34,375 nucleotides of DNA from a virus, in IMG/VR virus record IMGVR_UViG_3300029448_000178, positions 1 to 34,375 of that record; one strand, written 5' to 3'. This document shows, piece by piece, positions 7,157-13,582 of the stretch. Both the position numbers and the translations under genes were made by a program. Under the pieces are notes generated by a model. The model saw only the letters and a list, made by a program, of their open reading frames with translations. It had not been told where the DNA came from and searched no databases. How positions within the stretch are numbered: position 1 is the stretch's first letter; every line of letters begins with the position of its first letter.

Positions 7157-7775
7157 TCATCCCAGAGGGTATAAGTTTGCCATTGAAGGTTTCATCTTTC
7201 TTGTCCATGATCGCTTTTCTTTTTAGCCAGGCATCATAGTCAGGTCGTAGTTCAGGGTTTGTATCCCAAAACAGTTTTGCCTTGGCTCCGATCATCCCTT
7301 GAGCAGGGCATATCGAACCTGCTTGTTCCATGCTGTAAAAAATTTTTGGATCCTGACAGAGACGAGCAAGGGCGGCTACCTTCATGTTAAGGCGATTCAA
7401 AAGAGCAGCATCCATTCTCGCCTCGCATTGTTCATCTATGTAGTAATTTCCATACGAGAGTCCCAAGCCTATAGTGGTTACGCCAAGGCTCAAAGGTATA
7501 ACGCAGCTCGATTGTGAGTATACTGACATTGATGGACTCGCAGCTGATCCTACTGGCTGACGTGATGCAGCATTGCTCGTTGAATTATTTGTGGTGCTGG
7601 TTGTATTGGAGCTGGATCCTGATTGATATGTGGTACTCGTTTCCTGGCTGTACCCTCCAGATATACTGGTATTTGTGCCACTGGTATTGGTCTGCTGTAT
7701 GTCATTAGCTCCGCTGTTGGTGCTGTCAGCTAAGGCAATATTACTACATAGTAATAATATAAATAATCTTTTCAT
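7131..7775 (-). CDS. Secreted Ser/Thr/Asn-rich protein, 214 aa
   Basis: ATG 7775 is chosen because it begins a textbook signal peptide (MKRLFILLLCSNIALA, then DS). An in-frame start 32 codons upstream would hide that peptide and overlap the neighbouring gene widely. After the signal comes a low-complexity Ser/Thr/Asn/Gly segment (residues about 18-75). A second hydrophobic stretch (CVIPLSLGVTTIGLGLSYG, about 91-109) follows, then a cysteine-containing helical part and a very acidic end. The start overlaps the upstream holin-like stop (ATGA). No family was recognised; the position suggests a role at the cell envelope during exit. Confidence 0.65.
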   Translation of the reverse strand: MKRLFILLLCSNIALADSTNSGANDIQQTNTSGTNTSISGGYSQETSTTYQSGSSSNTTSTTNNSTSNAASRQPVGSAASPSMSVYSQSSCVIPLSLGVTTIGLGLSYGNYYIDEQCEARMDAALLNRLNMKVAALARLCQDPKIFYSMEQAGSICPAQGMIGAKAKLFWDTNPELRPDYDAWLKRKAIMDKKDETFNGKLIPSGMIDDDDEED

Positions 7776-8206
7776 TTTCGTACAAGGCTGCCTCCAAAAT
7801 ATAAACCTATAATTGACGAGACGACATGGGTATCTAGTGGGGTGATCACCAGACCTGACAATGGTTTCCATTGAGTCATATCTACATCAGTTGCAAATAT
7901 CCACCAACCCTCTTGTACTGTTTCTGTATACCCTACATAAATAGGCATTGATGGATCTATAAATGGTGCGAGCTTAGGTATAACCAGTATAGATACAACA
8001 GCTATCAAAGCTATCCACCTTCTAGTATTCTTTGTAAATGCGTCAGTAACTTCTCTTGCTTTGTCTGCTTGTTCGGCTGCAAACTCAGCTCGTTGCATAA
8101 ACATTTTTTGCTTTTCTGCCTCAGCTTGAGATTTTTGAGCCATGATAGATAGGACACCACCTAGTACTGTACTAGCTAACATGCTTAATAATTCCATAGG
8201 TATCAT
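7772..8206 (-). CDS. Three-segment membrane protein, candidate holin
   Basis: This 144-aa protein has hydrophobic segments near residues 5-22, 64-83 and 128-139, with a charged, Gln/Glu/Lys-rich helix (25-60) between the first two. The arrangement resembles three-pass phage and gene-transfer-agent holins, which open the inner membrane at lysis. It is coupled by ATGA overlaps to the XhlA-like gene upstream and the secreted protein downstream. No endolysin gene is recognisable nearby, so the lysis assignment rests on topology and neighbourhood only. Confidence 0.6.
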   Translation of the reverse strand: MIPMELLSMLASTVLGGVLSIMAQKSQAEAEKQKMFMQRAEFAAEQADKAREVTDAFTKNTRRWIALIAVVSILVIPKLAPFIDPSMPIYVGYTETVQEGWWIFATDVDMTQWKPLSGLVITPLDTHVVSSIIGLYFGGSLVRK

Positions 8207-8367
8207 GAGTTATAAAAATAGCCTCCGACTATTGCAGCTATACCACCCAGCCATGCTATAAATGTAATAGCACCCTTGCCTTTGTTGATAGCCTCTTCAA
8301 GTTTAGTGATCCTCTCTTCCAGAGATTCTAGCTTATCTAGTATTTGTGAATTAGTTACTGTTCTCAT
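8203..8367 (-). CDS. XhlA-like small membrane protein, 54 aa
   Basis: ATG 8367 follows AGGA at a fair distance and the TGA overlaps the next start (ATGA). Residues about 6-28 form a heptad-patterned charged helix (LDKLESLEERITKLEEAI) and residues about 33-51 a glycine-rich membrane segment (ITFIAWLGGIAAIVGGYFY). Coiled coil followed by a C-terminal membrane segment is the pattern of the XhlA haemolysin/holin family, which works with a second holin-like protein; here that would be the next gene. The assignment is by pattern only. Confidence 0.65.
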   Translation of the reverse strand: MRTVTNSQILDKLESLEERITKLEEAINKGKGAITFIAWLGGIAAIVGGYFYNS

Positions 8368-8389: not shown

Positions 8390-9073
8390 TTAATAAGCCA
8401 TATGTTTTATTCGTGGAGATTCTTCTAAAAAATCATTAACCCACCTTATTAGTTTGGCATTGTGTACATCATAGGGTTCTACAAATACCTTGCTTTTATC
8501 CAGTTTATTAAGGTCTATAATATCATCACAATTATTTAATGTAGTGTTTAAATCATAATAATTAGCTTTTACAGGTACATATTCAATTTCAAAAAATGCA
8601 CATATTCTTCTGCAAACATTGTTTGGATCATTAAACAAGTCTTGACTATTTACAAAAATAATATCTTTTGAATCATTCATATACTTAACATAATTTAACC
8701 ATATATACGCTCTAGTGGTTGTTTGATGTAACACTCCAACAAGTTTTTCTGTAGCCTTATTATACTTTTCTAATAACTCTGGTTTATAAGGGTGATTAAA
8801 AAAGTTTTTATAAACATCAAATCCTATGCCTCTTTCTTTTCTACCATTTTTAAGTAAATCGCTATATAAAGTTCTGTATAAAAATACTTTTTTACCTCCA
8901 TGTTTAAGAACTTTGTATGCCTCCATGCTTGGATATTTAACTAAACAGTTTGGTTTTTCTATTATTTCATCCTTTCTACACCAAGTAGGTTCTGAATATG
9001 TTGGTATAGATTTACTTAACAGACACGCTAAATAAGTTGAGCCACAATGACTTGTATGCCAAATACTATACAT
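8390..9073 (-). CDS. Sulfotransferase-like protein, 227 aa
   Basis: The N-terminus HTSHCGSTYLACLLS (residues 6-20) matches the phosphosulfate-binding loop of PAPS-dependent sulfotransferases, which move a sulfate group onto a hydroxyl or amine. KVFLYRTLYSDLL (62-74) fits the strand and helix carrying the conserved Arg and Ser (Arg67, Ser71) that bind the 3'-phosphate. VNSQDLFNDPNNVCRRICAF (141-160) matches the typical 'YEDL..DP......FL' region. The substrate is unknown. It is the last gene of an AT-rich, GATC-poor cassette that differs from its surroundings and includes two oxygenases that could create hydroxyl acceptors. It lies just downstream of the tail-fibre genes. Confidence 0.72.
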   Translation of the reverse strand: MYSIWHTSHCGSTYLACLLSKSIPTYSEPTWCRKDEIIEKPNCLVKYPSMEAYKVLKHGGKKVFLYRTLYSDLLKNGRKERGIGFDVYKNFFNHPYKPELLEKYNKATEKLVGVLHQTTTRAYIWLNYVKYMNDSKDIIFVNSQDLFNDPNNVCRRICAFFEIEYVPVKANYYDLNTTLNNCDDIIDLNKLDKSKVFVEPYDVHNAKLIRWVNDFLEESPRIKHMAY

Positions 9074-9632
9074 TTTGTACCTTGTCTAAGTCGATAAGTT
9101 TATATGCTAAAGTAACTCTTAAATCATTAAATGCAATTGAAATAGGAGTAGCATGATGAGTAATGTCTGCTTGAAAATATACAGCAGACCAAGGTTTAGG
9201 ATATATTATTTCATAATCATCTTCATCTTTTTTAAATGCTGTATATCCACCCCATTCACTTTTCCACTCAGAGTTACAATAAATTAAAAAAGTTACTTCT
9301 GATCTACTTAAAGTTGGATTATCAACCATACCTGTAATACCTGTATCTTTATGCTCATATCCAAATGAGCCAGCTGTATGACCATTAAAATAAATTCTTT
9401 GAAATGCTAAATTATTTCCTGTTATTTTTTTAATTTTATTAAAAAGAGTATGAGTAAAAAAGGAATCAAGCTCCAATGGTTCTCTCATAGCCCAAAAACT
9501 ATAATTAGCACTGTGTTTGGACTTTTGACCATATGCCCAATTGTTAGTCTTAATTTTTTTACGAATAGTATCAATGTCATCTTGACCTAAAAAATCATTA
9601 AACTTTTTTATCATTTGAAAAATCTGCCTCAT
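9066..9632 (-). CDS. 2-oxoglutarate/Fe(II)-dependent oxygenase, 188 aa
   Basis: The double-stranded beta-helix signature is present: His94-Lys-Asp96 as the HxD iron ligands, a distal histidine in DITHHATPI (His159 or His160) and Arg172 in LRVTLAYKL for binding 2-oxoglutarate. The core WGGYTAF and WSAVYFQADITHH segments resemble prolyl-4-hydroxylase-type enzymes. Such enzymes hydroxylate protein side chains or small molecules using oxygen and 2-oxoglutarate. The gene overlaps the previous oxygenase by 35 bases and the sulfotransferase by eight. A start at ATG 9614 (six codons later) is possible and would reduce the first overlap. Substrate is unknown. Confidence 0.8.
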   Translation of the reverse strand: MRQIFQMIKKFNDFLGQDDIDTIRKKIKTNNWAYGQKSKHSANYSFWAMREPLELDSFFTHTLFNKIKKITGNNLAFQRIYFNGHTAGSFGYEHKDTGITGMVDNPTLSRSEVTFLIYCNSEWKSEWGGYTAFKKDEDDYEIIYPKPWSAVYFQADITHHATPISIAFNDLRVTLAYKLIDLDKVQNV

Positions 9633-10197
9633 TTCTACATAACCAATTTATGATACAATACCTACCCTCTCCATGAATTAAATCTTTTCTGTTCATTTTA
9701 ATTGGTCTAACTCCATGTTGTAATCCACTACCAAACATAACAAATTTATTATAGGTACACTCTATTTCTGTATCTATTTCTGGAAAATATAAGTTGCCTC
9801 CTGTAAATTGTTTAGGTTGTTTATACAAATATATACAGCTTGTAAATTGTGCAAAGTCTGTATGAGGCTTATATTCCTGACTATCTTCATAATACTTTAT
9901 AGTGGGAATTAGGTCAGTAGCTGCATCTATATTGCCATATAAAACATTTAATTTTTTAACTTCTGTTTTTAAGTCTTCATTTAAAAAAATTTTATTCCAA
10001 CAAATTTGAGATATGCTTGAAAATTGTCTTTCTTTAAATATAACTCTAGGGTTATATGACAAGTGATTGGTTTTTTCTAATTGAGAACCTGAATCTAAAG
10101 ATGATATAAGTCTATAAGGACTTGTCGCCCACTCTAATTCTTTCCAAACTAATTTTAACTCATCTTCAGTAAAAAAATTATCAATAGTATAAATCAC
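9598..10197 (-). CDS. 2-oxoglutarate/Fe(II)-dependent oxygenase, 199 aa
   Basis: GTG 10197 starts this gene, four bases after the previous stop codon begins. The iron and co-substrate residues are visible: His112-Thr-Asp114, distal His161 in GSGLQHGVRPI and Arg179 in GRYCIINWL, with GGNLYFPE (133-140) as the usual central strand. The fold matches prolyl-hydroxylase-like oxygenases. It differs clearly from the adjacent oxygenase, so the two are not a recent duplication. Both sit between the tail-fibre tip genes and a sulfotransferase, suggesting modification of a fibre, a host surface molecule or a metabolite. Confidence 0.82.
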   Translation of the reverse strand: MIYTIDNFFTEDELKLVWKELEWATSPYRLISSLDSGSQLEKTNHLSYNPRVIFKERQFSSISQICWNKIFLNEDLKTEVKKLNVLYGNIDAATDLIPTIKYYEDSQEYKPHTDFAQFTSCIYLYKQPKQFTGGNLYFPEIDTEIECTYNKFVMFGSGLQHGVRPIKMNRKDLIHGEGRYCIINWLCRNEADFSNDKKV

Positions 10198-10200
10198 AAT

Positions 10201-10509
10201 TTAAGACCATGGATCATATGGAGCTGGACCATCTCCTGTTTCAACACCATTATCATCTGCGGTTTTTGTTATAGGGGCTGGATCGACTGTGGAATCCCAT
10301 GCAGTAATTGTTCCAAAATCACCAGCAACACATCTGTTGTATATTTCTATTGTGTGAGTATATATATCTTCAAGCCTAGCTGCAAATGAAGAATAATCCT
10401 CACTATTTATATGATCGAAGTTTACTTCACATACTATCAAAGTTTTTTCTTCATTCGCCCATCTAGGGTTTTTTACATCACTATAAGTTATTCCTATATT
10501 TTCTGCCAT
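10201..10509 (-). CDS. Tail-associated hypothetical protein, 102 aa
   Basis: A good ribosome site (GGAGATAATT) precedes ATG 10509. The protein starts with strand-like sequence (ITYSDVKNPRWANEEKTLIV), has a helical middle (residues about 37-62) and ends in a Pro/Gly/Asp-rich tail ending PYDPWS. It sits directly after the fibre-tip gene on the same transcript, a place where phages often carry fibre chaperones or tip attachments. No named family was recognised; either role would be inference. Confidence 0.6.
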   Translation of the reverse strand: MAENIGITYSDVKNPRWANEEKTLIVCEVNFDHINSEDYSSFAARLEDIYTHTIEIYNRCVAGDFGTITAWDSTVDPAPITKTADDNGVETGDGPAPYDPWS

Positions 10510-10518
10510 AATTATCTC

Positions 10519-10995
10519 CTATGATATTCTTACCCAAAGCCCATTAGTTGCCAAGTTGGCGGATGAAGTACCAGAGGCAACTCCACTCATACATCTCCAA
10601 GTTCCTGTATTAACATGAGCTGATTGACTTCCAGAACGAAATCCTGTAAAATATGATTCTTCACCGCCATCACTTGTATAAAGACCTCTCGCTCCTTGTG
10701 CATATAATTGACTGCCAGCTAATGTACTATCAACAGCTTTGTCAGTACGACTGTTTAGTCTACCCATAACATAAGTTCCTATTGCACGATAAGTTGTAGG
10801 CGGATCAGCACTTATAGTACTAAAAGTCATAGAACCATCAGCGTCTGAAGTTAAGGCTTGTCCTGATGTACCATTCCCACTTACATTAAGTTCGGCTGCT
10901 CCAACAGTATTATCTGTAATTTGGGATGCACCTACTGTATTTGATGATAAAGAACCAGCGTCTATAATTGTTGTTCCATTTGATATTATTGCCAT
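10519..10995 (-). CDS. Putative tail-fibre tip protein, 158 aa
   Basis: The N-terminus (TTIIDAGSLSSNTVGASQIT, then DNTVGAAELNV) is the repetitive low-complexity motif common at the start of marine phage fibre segments. The C-terminal half is rich in Gly, Ser, Thr and aromatic residues (for example TSDGGEESYFTGFRSGSQ), as in receptor-binding tips. It lies in a chain of three fibre-like genes. A receptor-binding role is inferred from composition and place; no enzyme motif is visible. Confidence 0.65.
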   Translation of the reverse strand: MAIISNGTTIIDAGSLSSNTVGASQITDNTVGAAELNVSGNGTSGQALTSDADGSMTFSTISADPPTTYRAIGTYVMGRLNSRTDKAVDSTLAGSQLYAQGARGLYTSDGGEESYFTGFRSGSQSAHVNTGTWRCMSGVASGTSSANLATNGLWVRIS

Positions 10996-10997
10996 TT

Positions 10998-11798
10998 CTA
11001 AACTTCCTCCAATTTAAATTTATATTTTTTACCATTGTTTCTGTTTATAAGAAACAAATTATTTGAACCCTCTTGAATTGTCCATGAACCAGATGTACCA
11101 TCTACCTCATTTTTTCTTGTATGTGTATTATTTAAATTCAAGTCTCCTGTATATACATCTCTAAATACTTTAGAACTAGAACCTAAATCATAAGCGTCAT
11201 TAGTGGCTGGAATAAGTGCTGTGCTTGTAACTGATAGCACATCTGAGTTTCCTACTTTAATGTCTATTTGATCGTCTGTATCTGCTGTAATTGAGCTGTC
11301 TCCATCTACATCTAATATTAGTTCGTTACCATTCATATCAACAGTGTTGCCATTAGCATCTAATGTTCCACCAAGTTGAGGTGTTGTATCGCTAACAACA
11401 TTTGCTAAAAATCCTGAATCATTGGTAAACATACTAATGTTTCCAGATTTGTTGGTAAGCGTATCTGTTGAAGACGCAGTAAATGTAATATTAGAAGTAA
11501 GGGCAAATGTGCCTGTACCACCAGGAATTGTGTGTGTATTTACTGTACCTAAATTTGTTATGTTATTTGATTGTGCGTCTAATGCTCCGCCTAGTTGTGG
11601 TGTTGTGTCTTCTACGACATTCGCTATACTTCCTGAAGCTATTTCAGAAAATTTAGCTAGTCTTTCTCCACCAGCAGTAGAGCCATCATGCACTCTTAGT
11701 GTTTTTAAATCAGTATCAACAGTTACTTCTCTTACAGAACCTGTAAACGAGCCATGTGCAGATGTTGTACCTCCTCTTAATTGTAGTTTTTTAGCCAT
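10998..11798 (-). CDS. Tail-fibre segment protein, 266 aa
   Basis: The start MAKKLQLRGGTTSAHGSFTG, followed by an EVTVDTDLKTLRVHDGSTAGG block, is the small domain seen at the N-terminus of many phage fibre and tropism proteins. Two copies of the module V-x-DTTPQLGG-x-LD follow (about residues 60-80 and 135-155); a third copy ends the upstream fibre gene. The rest is strand-rich with NDAYDLGSSSKVFRDVYTGD, a typical beta-helix shaft or tip segment. The ATG overlaps the preceding stop (ATGA), so it is co-translated with the main fibre. Confidence 0.75.
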   Translation of the reverse strand: MAKKLQLRGGTTSAHGSFTGSVREVTVDTDLKTLRVHDGSTAGGERLAKFSEIASGSIANVVEDTTPQLGGALDAQSNNITNLGTVNTHTIPGGTGTFALTSNITFTASSTDTLTNKSGNISMFTNDSGFLANVVSDTTPQLGGTLDANGNTVDMNGNELILDVDGDSSITADTDDQIDIKVGNSDVLSVTSTALIPATNDAYDLGSSSKVFRDVYTGDLNLNNTHTRKNEVDGTSGSWTIQEGSNNLFLINRNNGKKYKFKLEEV

Positions 11799-13582
11799 TA
11801 TGTTATACCTCCAAAGTCTAGCTGTAAGTTAGTACCATCTATTGTACCAATGTTGCTCATGTTGTTATTTTGCCCATCTAATGCACCACCTAATTGTGGC
11901 GTAGAATCTTCTACAACATTAGCTATGCCAGCAGTTATACTAGCCCATGCACTACCATTGTAAAATTTTAATTGATTATCTGTTGAATTATATGCTAAAT
12001 CACCCTCATCTAAACTAGATGTTGGATCGCTTGAACCTACTCTGTATCGTTCAGCAAAGCTATTAACTCCAGATATATTGGTAGCTACTGTATTTATATT
12101 TGTAACTGCACCAGCTACTGTAGAAATATTTGAATTAGCTCCAGCTACTGTTGTAATGTTTGAATTTGCTGACGCTACTGTATTAACATTTGATATTGCT
12201 CCAGCAACTGTACCAATATCTGTAGCGTCTCCAGCTACTGCTGTTACATTTGATGAAATGCCAGCTACTGTTGTTATGTTACCTGATATTCCAGCGACTG
12301 TATTTACATTGGCTATATCTGTAGCAACAGTATTTATGGTATTTCCAGAGCCAGTTGTTATTGCTCCTAAATCTCCTAAGTCTTCTGTAAATAATATTTG
12401 ACCAGCCACTGCATTAATGTTTGTTGCATTGCCAGCAACTGATGTAACGTTTGTGCTGATACCAGCAACTGTAGCTACCTCAGTAGATACTCCAGCAACT
12501 GTTGATATGTCACTCGAGCTTAGTCCAGACAATGCAGTAATTTCACTGCTTTGATTAGCTACTGATGTTACATCGCTAGATATACCAGCAACTGTTGTAA
12601 CATTAGCTTGAATTCCAGCTACTGTGTTTATATTAGATAAACCGCCTGCTACTGTATTAACATTGGAAATACTGCCACCAACATTATTTACATTGGTTAT
12701 AGCTCCAGCTACAACTTCTATTTCTGATGATGTTTCATTTAGATCATCAGCTACAGTTTCTATTTCAGATACTGCCTCAGCTAAATCATTTGCTACAGCT
12801 ACTACTTTAGTTATGTCCGCAGCGACTGTATTAACTGAGGTTATGTTTGTAGCTACTGTGTTAATGTTAGTAGCATTGCTAACCGCAGAATTTATGTTGC
12901 TAGCATTAGATACTGCTGCATTTATATTACTTGCATTTGATACTGCTGAATTTATGTTACTAGCATTAGATACTGCTGAGTTTATGTTACTTGCATTTCC
13001 AGCAACAGATGTAACATTGCTTGATATACCAGCGACTGTAGTTATATCAGATGCTATGCCAGCCAAGGTGTCAATGTTGGTTGTTGTGGATCCTAGCTCA
13101 AACGCATTTCCTGATGAATTAAATTTGATAATTCTGTTGGCGTTACTGCTCTCTGTGTTGTTATAGGGTAACTCCAGGGGCGTTGTTGCGTCTGTGTTTA
13201 TTGGTAAAGTAAAAGCTCTGTCTACCCTTTCTGATAATTGTGAGATCAGCAAAGTTTGTGAGTTTAATTCGTTTTCAAGTGATGCTGCTGTAAGCGGTCC
13301 TCCAGACGTAAAAGCTGTGGTCCTGCTGATAGATCTATCACCTATGATTGTAACTAAAACCCCAGTGCCTGGCGTATTCCCAGTAGTCGTTGTAATGGAT
13401 CCTGTGCCATCTGATCCGATAGTAACTGTATAGTGAGTGGTCAGCGTCTTTTTAGTGCCATCGAAGTAAACAGCTATATCTGCTGCTGCCTCTATAACAA
13501 AAGTAAAGGCAAAGCTCGTGGTCGAGTTGTTACCTGTATACTGTACTCGCCTGGTCGTACTGGTTATGGCGTTTAGTGCCAT
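11798..13582 (-). CDS. T7-type tail fibre with long repeat shaft, 594 aa
   Basis: Residues about 1-130 resemble the virion-attachment domain of T7 gp17-like fibres: strand-rich sequence, LTTHYTVTIGSDGTGSI, then SLENELNSQTLLISQLSERV. Residues about 150-520 are an almost pure series of short repeats such as NI-x-TVAG-x-x-x-N or SNASNINSAV, expected to form a long trimeric shaft. The end contains VVEDSTPQLGGALDGQNNN, the same module found twice in the next protein. At 594 aa it is near the size of T7 gp17 (553 aa). It follows the internal virion genes as in T7. Confidence 0.85.
   Translation of the reverse strand: MALNAITSTTRRVQYTGNNSTTSFAFTFVIEAAADIAVYFDGTKKTLTTHYTVTIGSDGTGSITTTTGNTPGTGVLVTIIGDRSISRTTAFTSGGPLTAASLENELNSQTLLISQLSERVDRAFTLPINTDATTPLELPYNNTESSNANRIIKFNSSGNAFELGSTTTNIDTLAGIASDITTVAGISSNVTSVAGNASNINSAVSNASNINSAVSNASNINAAVSNASNINSAVSNATNINTVATNITSVNTVAADITKVVAVANDLAEAVSEIETVADDLNETSSEIEVVAGAITNVNNVGGSISNVNTVAGGLSNINTVAGIQANVTTVAGISSDVTSVANQSSEITALSGLSSSDISTVAGVSTEVATVAGISTNVTSVAGNATNINAVAGQILFTEDLGDLGAITTGSGNTINTVATDIANVNTVAGISGNITTVAGISSNVTAVAGDATDIGTVAGAISNVNTVASANSNITTVAGANSNISTVAGAVTNINTVATNISGVNSFAERYRVGSSDPTSSLDEGDLAYNSTDNQLKFYNGSAWASITAGIANVVEDSTPQLGGALDGQNNNMSNIGTIDGTNLQLDFGGIT
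12871..12990. repeat. Four tandem 30-bp repeats in the fibre shaft
   Basis: Units at 12871-12900, 12901-12930, 12931-12960 and 12961-12990 differ at only a few bases and encode a 10-residue period (SNINSAVSNA-like) in the fibre. The wider region, about 12060-13080, is a more diverged set of related repeats. Such tracts can gain or lose units by slippage and so change fibre length. Confidence 0.85.

Follow-up and report, generated by a model that had tools for sequence, protein, structure and literature searches.

Why would a phage carry two predicted oxygenases and a sulfotransferase-like gene directly downstream of its tail fibre genes, and on what would their products act? We addressed this question in a marine phage known from a 34.4-kb virus record (IMG/VR IMGVR_UViG_3300029448_000178, positions 1 to 34,375), the whole of which is here called the window. 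The cassette, with the genes termed OXB, OXA and ST, occupies positions 8390-10197 of the minus strand (Table 1). A sequence-only reading of this DNA had described three overlapping genes of apparently recent gain, encoding two oxygenases and a sulfotransferase-like enzyme, and had asked whether the cassette swaps together with the fibre tips.

The window proteins terL, portal and MCP are 66%, 62% and 63% identical to those of MEP301, a Methylophilales (OM43) phage, which also provides the best match for tail tubular protein B. Judged from these terminase, portal, capsid and tail proteins, the window phage is a MEP301/HTVC010P-like podovirus, and its host is probably related to that of MEP301. 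The minus-strand gene order is fibre, fibre, TIP, SM, OXB, OXA, ST, a 54-aa protein and a holin-like gene. SM has homologues of 86-94 aa, encoded directly ahead of OXB in those relatives that share the tip.

Table 1. Features of the window from the main tail fibre to the holin-like gene
Feature	Position	Strand	Evidence and remarks
Main tail fibre	11798..13582	(-)	phrog_21412, E 3.3e-67
Tail fibre protein, Mtd_N-like N-terminus	10998..11798	(-)	PF18454 E 1.9e-11; phrog_892
TIP, fibre-tip protein, domain AIGTYVMGR...NTGTWRCMS...GLWVR; candidate substrate	10519..10995	(-)	Tip homologues in cassette-bearing contigs
SM, small tail-fibre protein	10201..10509	(-)	phrog_1795
OXB, predicted 2OG-Fe(II) oxygenase, prolyl-4-hydroxylase-like, 199 aa, GTG start	9598..10197	(-)	PF13640; phrog_61
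OXA, predicted 2OG-Fe(II) oxygenase	9066..9614	(-)	PF13640; phrog_274, T4-GC166 family; ORF opens at 9632
ST, sulfotransferase-like, 227 aa	8390..9073	(-)	P-loop HTSHCGST, invariant Glu28 in SEPxW; viral relatives; predicted fold
54-aa membrane-type small protein after ST	8203..8367	(-)	Site of the APS-kinase-like gene in most other class I loci
Holin-like protein, anchor gene for locus comparison	7772..8206	(-)	Judged from size, hydrophobic segment and position

Two predicted 2-oxoglutarate oxygenases

The overlapping genes of the sequence-only reading are indeed present as three minus-strand ORFs (9598-10197, 9066-9632 and 8390-9073, of 199, 188 and 227 aa). OXB and OXA match PF13640 at 35.9 bits (E 1.5e-8) and 33.6 bits (E 7.6e-8), above the curated cut-off of 27. 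The full HxD...H...R set already noticed in both proteins, an iron triad plus the basic residue for 2OG, is confirmed. Residues H94, D96, H159 and R172 of OXA are invariant in a nine-member alignment, and OXB has a complete set in H112, D114, H161 and R179, with R179 being Lys in many relatives. By sequence, OXA and OXB are members of the 2OG-Fe(II) oxygenase superfamily with predicted activity. An ATG at 9614 is a more likely start for OXA than the opening of the ORF at 9632, because the homologues begin there. This placement gives a 17-bp overlap between OXB and OXA, which is found exactly in L164, L169, L261, L265, L272 and L274.

The nearest solved structure to OXB is a prolyl 4-hydroxylase (6t8m, E 3e-5), and those nearest to OXA are of the OGFOD1/PHD2 type with a weak match, so that protein hydroxylation is the favoured activity. 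The PHROG/RefSeq label of phrog_274, ‘DNA endonuclease V’, was considered for OXA and rejected, as the protein is a 2OG-Fe(II) oxygenase with an intact HxD...H...R. The same name is attached to the OXA family in cyanophage records (e.g. L097:5992-6495 and L099:6004-6513). We looked for a common neighbourhood of OXA homologues in bacterial genomes and found none. The neighbourhoods of OXA relatives in other viruses include sulfotransferases, a methyltransferase-like gene and a halogenase. On another viral contig (L011:6001-9142), the genes beside an OXA homologue are one tryptophan-halogenase-like and two sulfotransferase-like genes.

A viral protein family with a predicted sulfotransferase fold

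Direct searches with the window ST returned only noise from IMG/VR, INPHARED, plasmids, GTDB contigs and 398 genomes, and its match to Pfam Sulfotransfer_1 (E 0.02) is below the cut-off. Relatives were sought in IMG/VR using a degenerate DNA pattern back-translated from the P-loop peptide HTxHCG[S/T]TxLxxL, which relies on the ST sequence alone and is independent of the oxygenases. The pattern is present in 29 IMG/VR contigs, 27 of which encode ST relatives (E 6e-14 to 2e-44), and a subsequent profile scan of IMG/VR enlarged the set. Three members of the family used as queries had no match in the cultured phages of INPHARED.

In an alignment of 24 ST proteins, 22 positions are invariant, including the P-loop, Glu28, Pro29, Trp31 and Lys75. 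The invariance of the P-loop (5'-PSB) sequence HTSHCGST among these proteins is partly due to the construction of the search pattern, and a variant, HTSQCGST, occurs in five loci found via OXB (L259, L261, L265, L272 and L274). The canonical 3'-phosphate-binding (3'-PB) Arg...Ser (+8) takes the form [R/N]...invariant Lys75 in this family. PF00685 (Sulfotransfer_1) is matched by nine of the 24 members, at best with E 6.4e-7, while a bacterial Sulfotransfer_3 set gives only marginal matches to ST (23.6 with the single sequence against 22.6 for the best control; E 0.0016 with the family profile).

AlphaFold2 modeled ST with the family alignment at pLDDT 84.8 and pTM 0.85, compared with pLDDT 32 from the single sequence. 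All 26 Foldseek matches of the model in the PDB at E <= 1e-3 are sulfotransferases, heparan sulfate sulfotransferases among them, with a TM of about 0.5 at best. VIA-align scored the model at Z 11.6 to the sulfotransferase domain of CurM (curacin) over 186 residues and Z 11.0 to tyrosylprotein sulfotransferase. ST very probably has a sulfotransferase fold. The sequence-only reading was right to call it sulfotransferase-like, although it took the relatives and the predicted fold, both beyond the reach of the window sequence alone, to support this. A predicted fold in common with sulfotransferases is no demonstration of activity; we consider it likely that ST is a PAPS-dependent sulfation enzyme. 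The family appears to be undescribed; the components of the cassette belong to known superfamilies.

OXB, OXA and ST as a linked module

In the contigs found with the P-loop pattern, ST is almost always preceded by an OXB homologue or an OXB-OXA pair, with short overlaps like those in the window. A census of 50 non-redundant ST loci identified OXB upstream in 36 and OXA in 24, and we refer to the 24 loci with OXA as class I. OXB is present in 22 class I loci, the other two being contigs that end inside OXA, and an APS-kinase-like gene is located within 900 bp downstream in 18. By a crude tip definition, a recognisable fibre tip lies upstream in 17 of the 24 class I loci compared with 7 of the 26 without OXA (Fisher P 0.004). 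Distances among OXB, OXA and ST proteins correlate across 15 modules (Mantel r 0.74-0.88, P 1e-4). Scattered and unlinked homologues, named by the sequence-only reading as evidence against its proposal, were looked for; what we saw instead, in many uncultured phages, was the same order, the same overlaps and joint divergence. The three genes almost certainly form a linked module.

The converse scan shows OXB to be a broad family that mostly occurs without ST (ST in 10 of 55 loci). Some ST loci, here class II (L163, L173, L176, L183 and L190), have only OXB-ST and are located away from fibres, with the pair directly following a 93-aa protein that we read as resembling T4 gp33.

The APS-kinase-like protein of the relatives has 133-145 aa and carries the motifs GLSGSGKS, NGDEVR (vs DGDxxR), FS..GR and FIAP (vs FISP). 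Its best PDB matches are APS kinases (1.4e-7 with the single sequence, 9.8e-10 with a profile). The product of APS kinase is PAPS, from which sulfotransferases take their sulfate, and such a neighbour is what PAPS-dependent sulfation would predict. The gene is absent from L259, L261, L265, L272 and L274 as well as from the window, where an APS-kinase (APSK) profile had no match among the ORFs. In Casjensviridae (L253:7992-8732, L255:7992-8738 and L256:7992-8729), the kinase family forms the N-terminal part of a protein whose gene adjoins MazG, NADAR and cysteine-dioxygenase genes in a nucleotide-metabolism-like cluster without an annotated sulfotransferase.

One tip domain seen only with the cassette in the loci compared

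TIP homologues were searched by profile in 337 sequences, a set enriched for the cassette since its loci were fetched via ST, OXA, OXB, holin or other genes. Within this set, every locus with TIP also has SM, OXB, OXA and ST; these loci are the window and seven distinct contigs (L164, L169, L259, L261, L265, L272 and L274), of which some further loci are copies. No TIP was found in the cassette-free fibres of the loci anchored on the holin-like gene, and none among 50,697 cultured-phage records in INPHARED. On the question of swapping with fibre tips, the link thus turned out stronger than had been proposed, with one tip domain seen only together with the cassette.

The block TIP-SM-OXB-OXA-ST is located in two contexts, MEP301-like fibres and a second, unrelated fibre context. 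In L259, L261 and L265, the fibre shares 60% identity with MEP301 gp22 in its N-terminal part; phosphoesterase and peptidase genes like those of MEP301 are present in L261 and L265 as well. None of the tested MEP301 genes has a match in L164, L272 or L274, where the large tail protein encoded upstream is a different one; that of L164 had no match among solved structures. Our reading of the sequence of this protein and the absence of MEP301 matches suggest that this second context may be that of a different, siphovirus-like phage. In other class I loci the tip ahead of the module is of one of two further types, collar-like or glycine-rich, so the module overall is not tied to one type of tip.

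Gain of the cassette and base composition

We fetched 80 IMG/VR loci via the holin-like gene, and 54 of these have enough upstream sequence for comparison. None of the 54 has OXA or ST between fibre and holin, and one (L084) has an OXB homologue there. The interval is variable, holding fibre pieces, chaperones and, in several relatives, fatty-acid desaturases; such desaturase-like genes, single or two in tandem, lie at L016:7417-8843 and in L029/L030, L038, L047 and L049. The closest relatives, L012 and L013 (internal virion protein 93% and 87% identical), are on contigs that end in the fibre genes and thus carry no information on the interval. Because no relative at the holin locus has all three genes, we regard the cassette as a gain at this locus.

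Recent gain had been argued from base composition and from scarcity of GATC. The cassette is visibly more AT-rich, as had been noted: it has 28% GC against 39% in the rest of the genome and is the lowest-GC 1.8-kb stretch (0.284; stretches outside it go no lower than 0.321 and average 0.388, SD 0.023). Every carrier checked has a similarly low value (0.27-0.30 in the cassette vs 0.35-0.39). The AT-richness therefore travels with the cassette and by itself gives no date for the gain. The count of two GATC sites was also correct (4.5 expected from the cassette's own base composition), but the contrast with the neighbours did not hold, since GATC is equally unenriched in the fibre genes (7 vs 6.2 expected) and tips (5 vs 5.2). 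The enrichment lies in the rest of the genome, with 285 sites genome-wide against 118 expected, or about 2.4-fold. We accordingly rejected GATC scarcity as cassette-specific evidence; gain at the locus is supported, and the GATC argument for it is weak. A similar over-representation of about 2-2.5-fold is seen in L012 and L013, and other MEP301-like relatives are without enrichment.

Proposed role of the module and alternatives

Our main reading, to which we assign a probability of about 0.5, is that the cassette, placed in the late fibre operon, is a horizontally moving module for hydroxylation and sulfation of the receptor-binding tip. With O2, Fe(II) and 2-oxoglutarate, OXB and OXA would add hydroxyl groups to side chains of the tip proteins TIP, SM or both, and ST would then move sulfate from PAPS onto the new hydroxyl or a neighbouring one. 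The PAPS would come from the APS-kinase-like protein encoded next in many carriers and, for the window phage, from the host. Hydropathy revealed no evident signal peptide or membrane segment in the three enzymes, which fits modification in the cytoplasm before assembly. The receptor-binding tip would thereby be altered chemically and carry negative charge. We judge the odds that the tip is the substrate to be even. The proposal of the sequence-only reading, that hydroxylation could create the acceptor for sulfation on the fibre, a host surface glycan or a secreted product, is thus supported in part and extended. More tentatively, at somewhat short of even odds, the hydroxylases, the new viral ST family and, often, a PAPS-making kinase of their own may represent a mobile tip-modifying pathway that moves with the tip between unrelated phages. 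Several observations count against tip modification. Class II OXB-ST adjoins the gp33-like gene and not a fibre, the three tip types of class I share no one tip residue, OXB is mostly found without ST, the 3'-PB motif is altered, and the kinase family also occurs away from annotated sulfotransferases. The supply of PAPS by the host group is in doubt as well, because only few Methylophilaceae have an annotated cysC (PMC6794327).

The main rival, unlikely in our assessment, is that the cassette alters the part of the host surface to which the tip binds, for instance by hydroxylating and sulfating a glycan or lipid, thereby blocking re-adsorption or competing phages, and travels with the tip since it must match the receptor. 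Co-transfer with one tip is predicted by this explanation too, which also agrees with the heparan sulfate enzymes among the structural matches of ST, with the viral neighbourhoods of OXA relatives and with the glycosyltransferases of pelagimyophage host-recognition clusters, proposed to alter the host surface (PMC7029224). However, both oxygenases are nearest to protein hydroxylases, and the module has no glycosyltransferase. Surface exclusion is usually early, whereas the cassette genes abut or overlap late fibre genes. Should ST not depend on PAPS despite its fold, the module might only hydroxylate the tip, with ST transferring another group or merely binding. The altered 3'-PB motif, the sub-threshold Pfam match of the window ST and the lack of the kinase in the window and some relatives all fit such a role, which we nevertheless hold to be improbable in view of the P-loop region invariant across 24 proteins, the PF00685 matches of relatives and the APS-kinase-like neighbour in most class I loci.

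The enzymes could also serve auxiliary metabolism, with a small molecule or a metabolite of the host as substrate, their proximity to the fibres reflecting only a hot spot of gene gain. The hypervariable fibre-to-holin interval, with unrelated genes such as the desaturases, and the position of class II away from fibres agree with this view, as do proposals of 2OG balance or DNA repair for cyanophage 2OG oxygenases (PMC3037559). A hot spot leaves unexplained why, across several phage contexts, one tip domain was seen together with the cassette and never without it, and we consider a metabolic role improbable. Phages use 2OG oxygenases and kinases for base hypermodification, and the kinase family lies in a nucleotide-metabolism-like cluster in Casjensviridae, so we also weighed a modification of nucleic acid in which a base would receive a hydroxyl group from the oxygenases and a further decoration from the kinase or ST-like protein. 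With oxygenases of the PF13640 prolyl-hydroxylase type, a predicted sulfotransferase fold in ST and a module in the late fibre operon, this is very improbable. If tip modification is correct, it would add a previously undescribed chemical layer to host recognition, which predictions based only on the fibre sequence would overlook.

Comparison with known systems

The individual enzymes have counterparts elsewhere. Prolyl 4-hydroxylases, OGFOD1 and PHD2 have the same HxD...H...R/K core as OXB and OXA, but the similarity is weak and does not imply a substrate. Tyrosylprotein and heparan sulfate sulfotransferases and the PKS domains of CurM and Ols resemble the ST model in fold (Z about 10-11.6), yet differ in having about 10-19% identity to ST, in which the 3'-PB motif is altered. 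The APS kinase CysC (3cr7, 1d6j) has motifs like those of the relatives' kinase, which is shorter C-terminally and absent from the window. Metagenomic genomes of OM43 phages, which have the same likely host group as the window, contain the same two enzyme classes as separate 2OG oxygenase and Sulfotransfer_3 genes (PMC10580990). These are separate auxiliary genes with no cassette and no fibre link, and the function of the sulfotransferase was called unclear.

A close parallel is in Kyanoviridae (S-PM2, ACG-2014e, S-H9-2, S-CAM3, P-SSM7 and S-MbCM6), in which oxygenases of the OXA (T4-GC166) and OXB (T4-GC611 and others) families are located beside fibre genes as in the window, often as pairs with short overlaps. 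In cyanophages, OXA-family genes pair and overlap with genes of other 2OG oxygenases immediately behind the short tail fibre region, and P-SSM7 has a gene annotated as galactose-3-O-sulfotransferase about 4 kb from its OXB homologue. These clusters differ from the window in that its ST family, with three members as queries, had no match in cultured phages, and no APS-kinase-like partner was seen beside them. Within the open literature, with most subscription journals outside this scope, we came across neither a phage sulfotransferase paired with an APS kinase nor any account of fibre sulfation, and the tip-linked module appears to be undescribed. 2OG-Fe(II) oxygenases are widespread in marine phages without an established function, the guesses being 2OG balance or DNA repair (PMC3037559), and phage sulfotransferases have been called unexplained (PMC10580990). 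In comparison, a block that joins oxygenases and ST to one tip domain, often with a kinase, points to a concrete and easily tested function.
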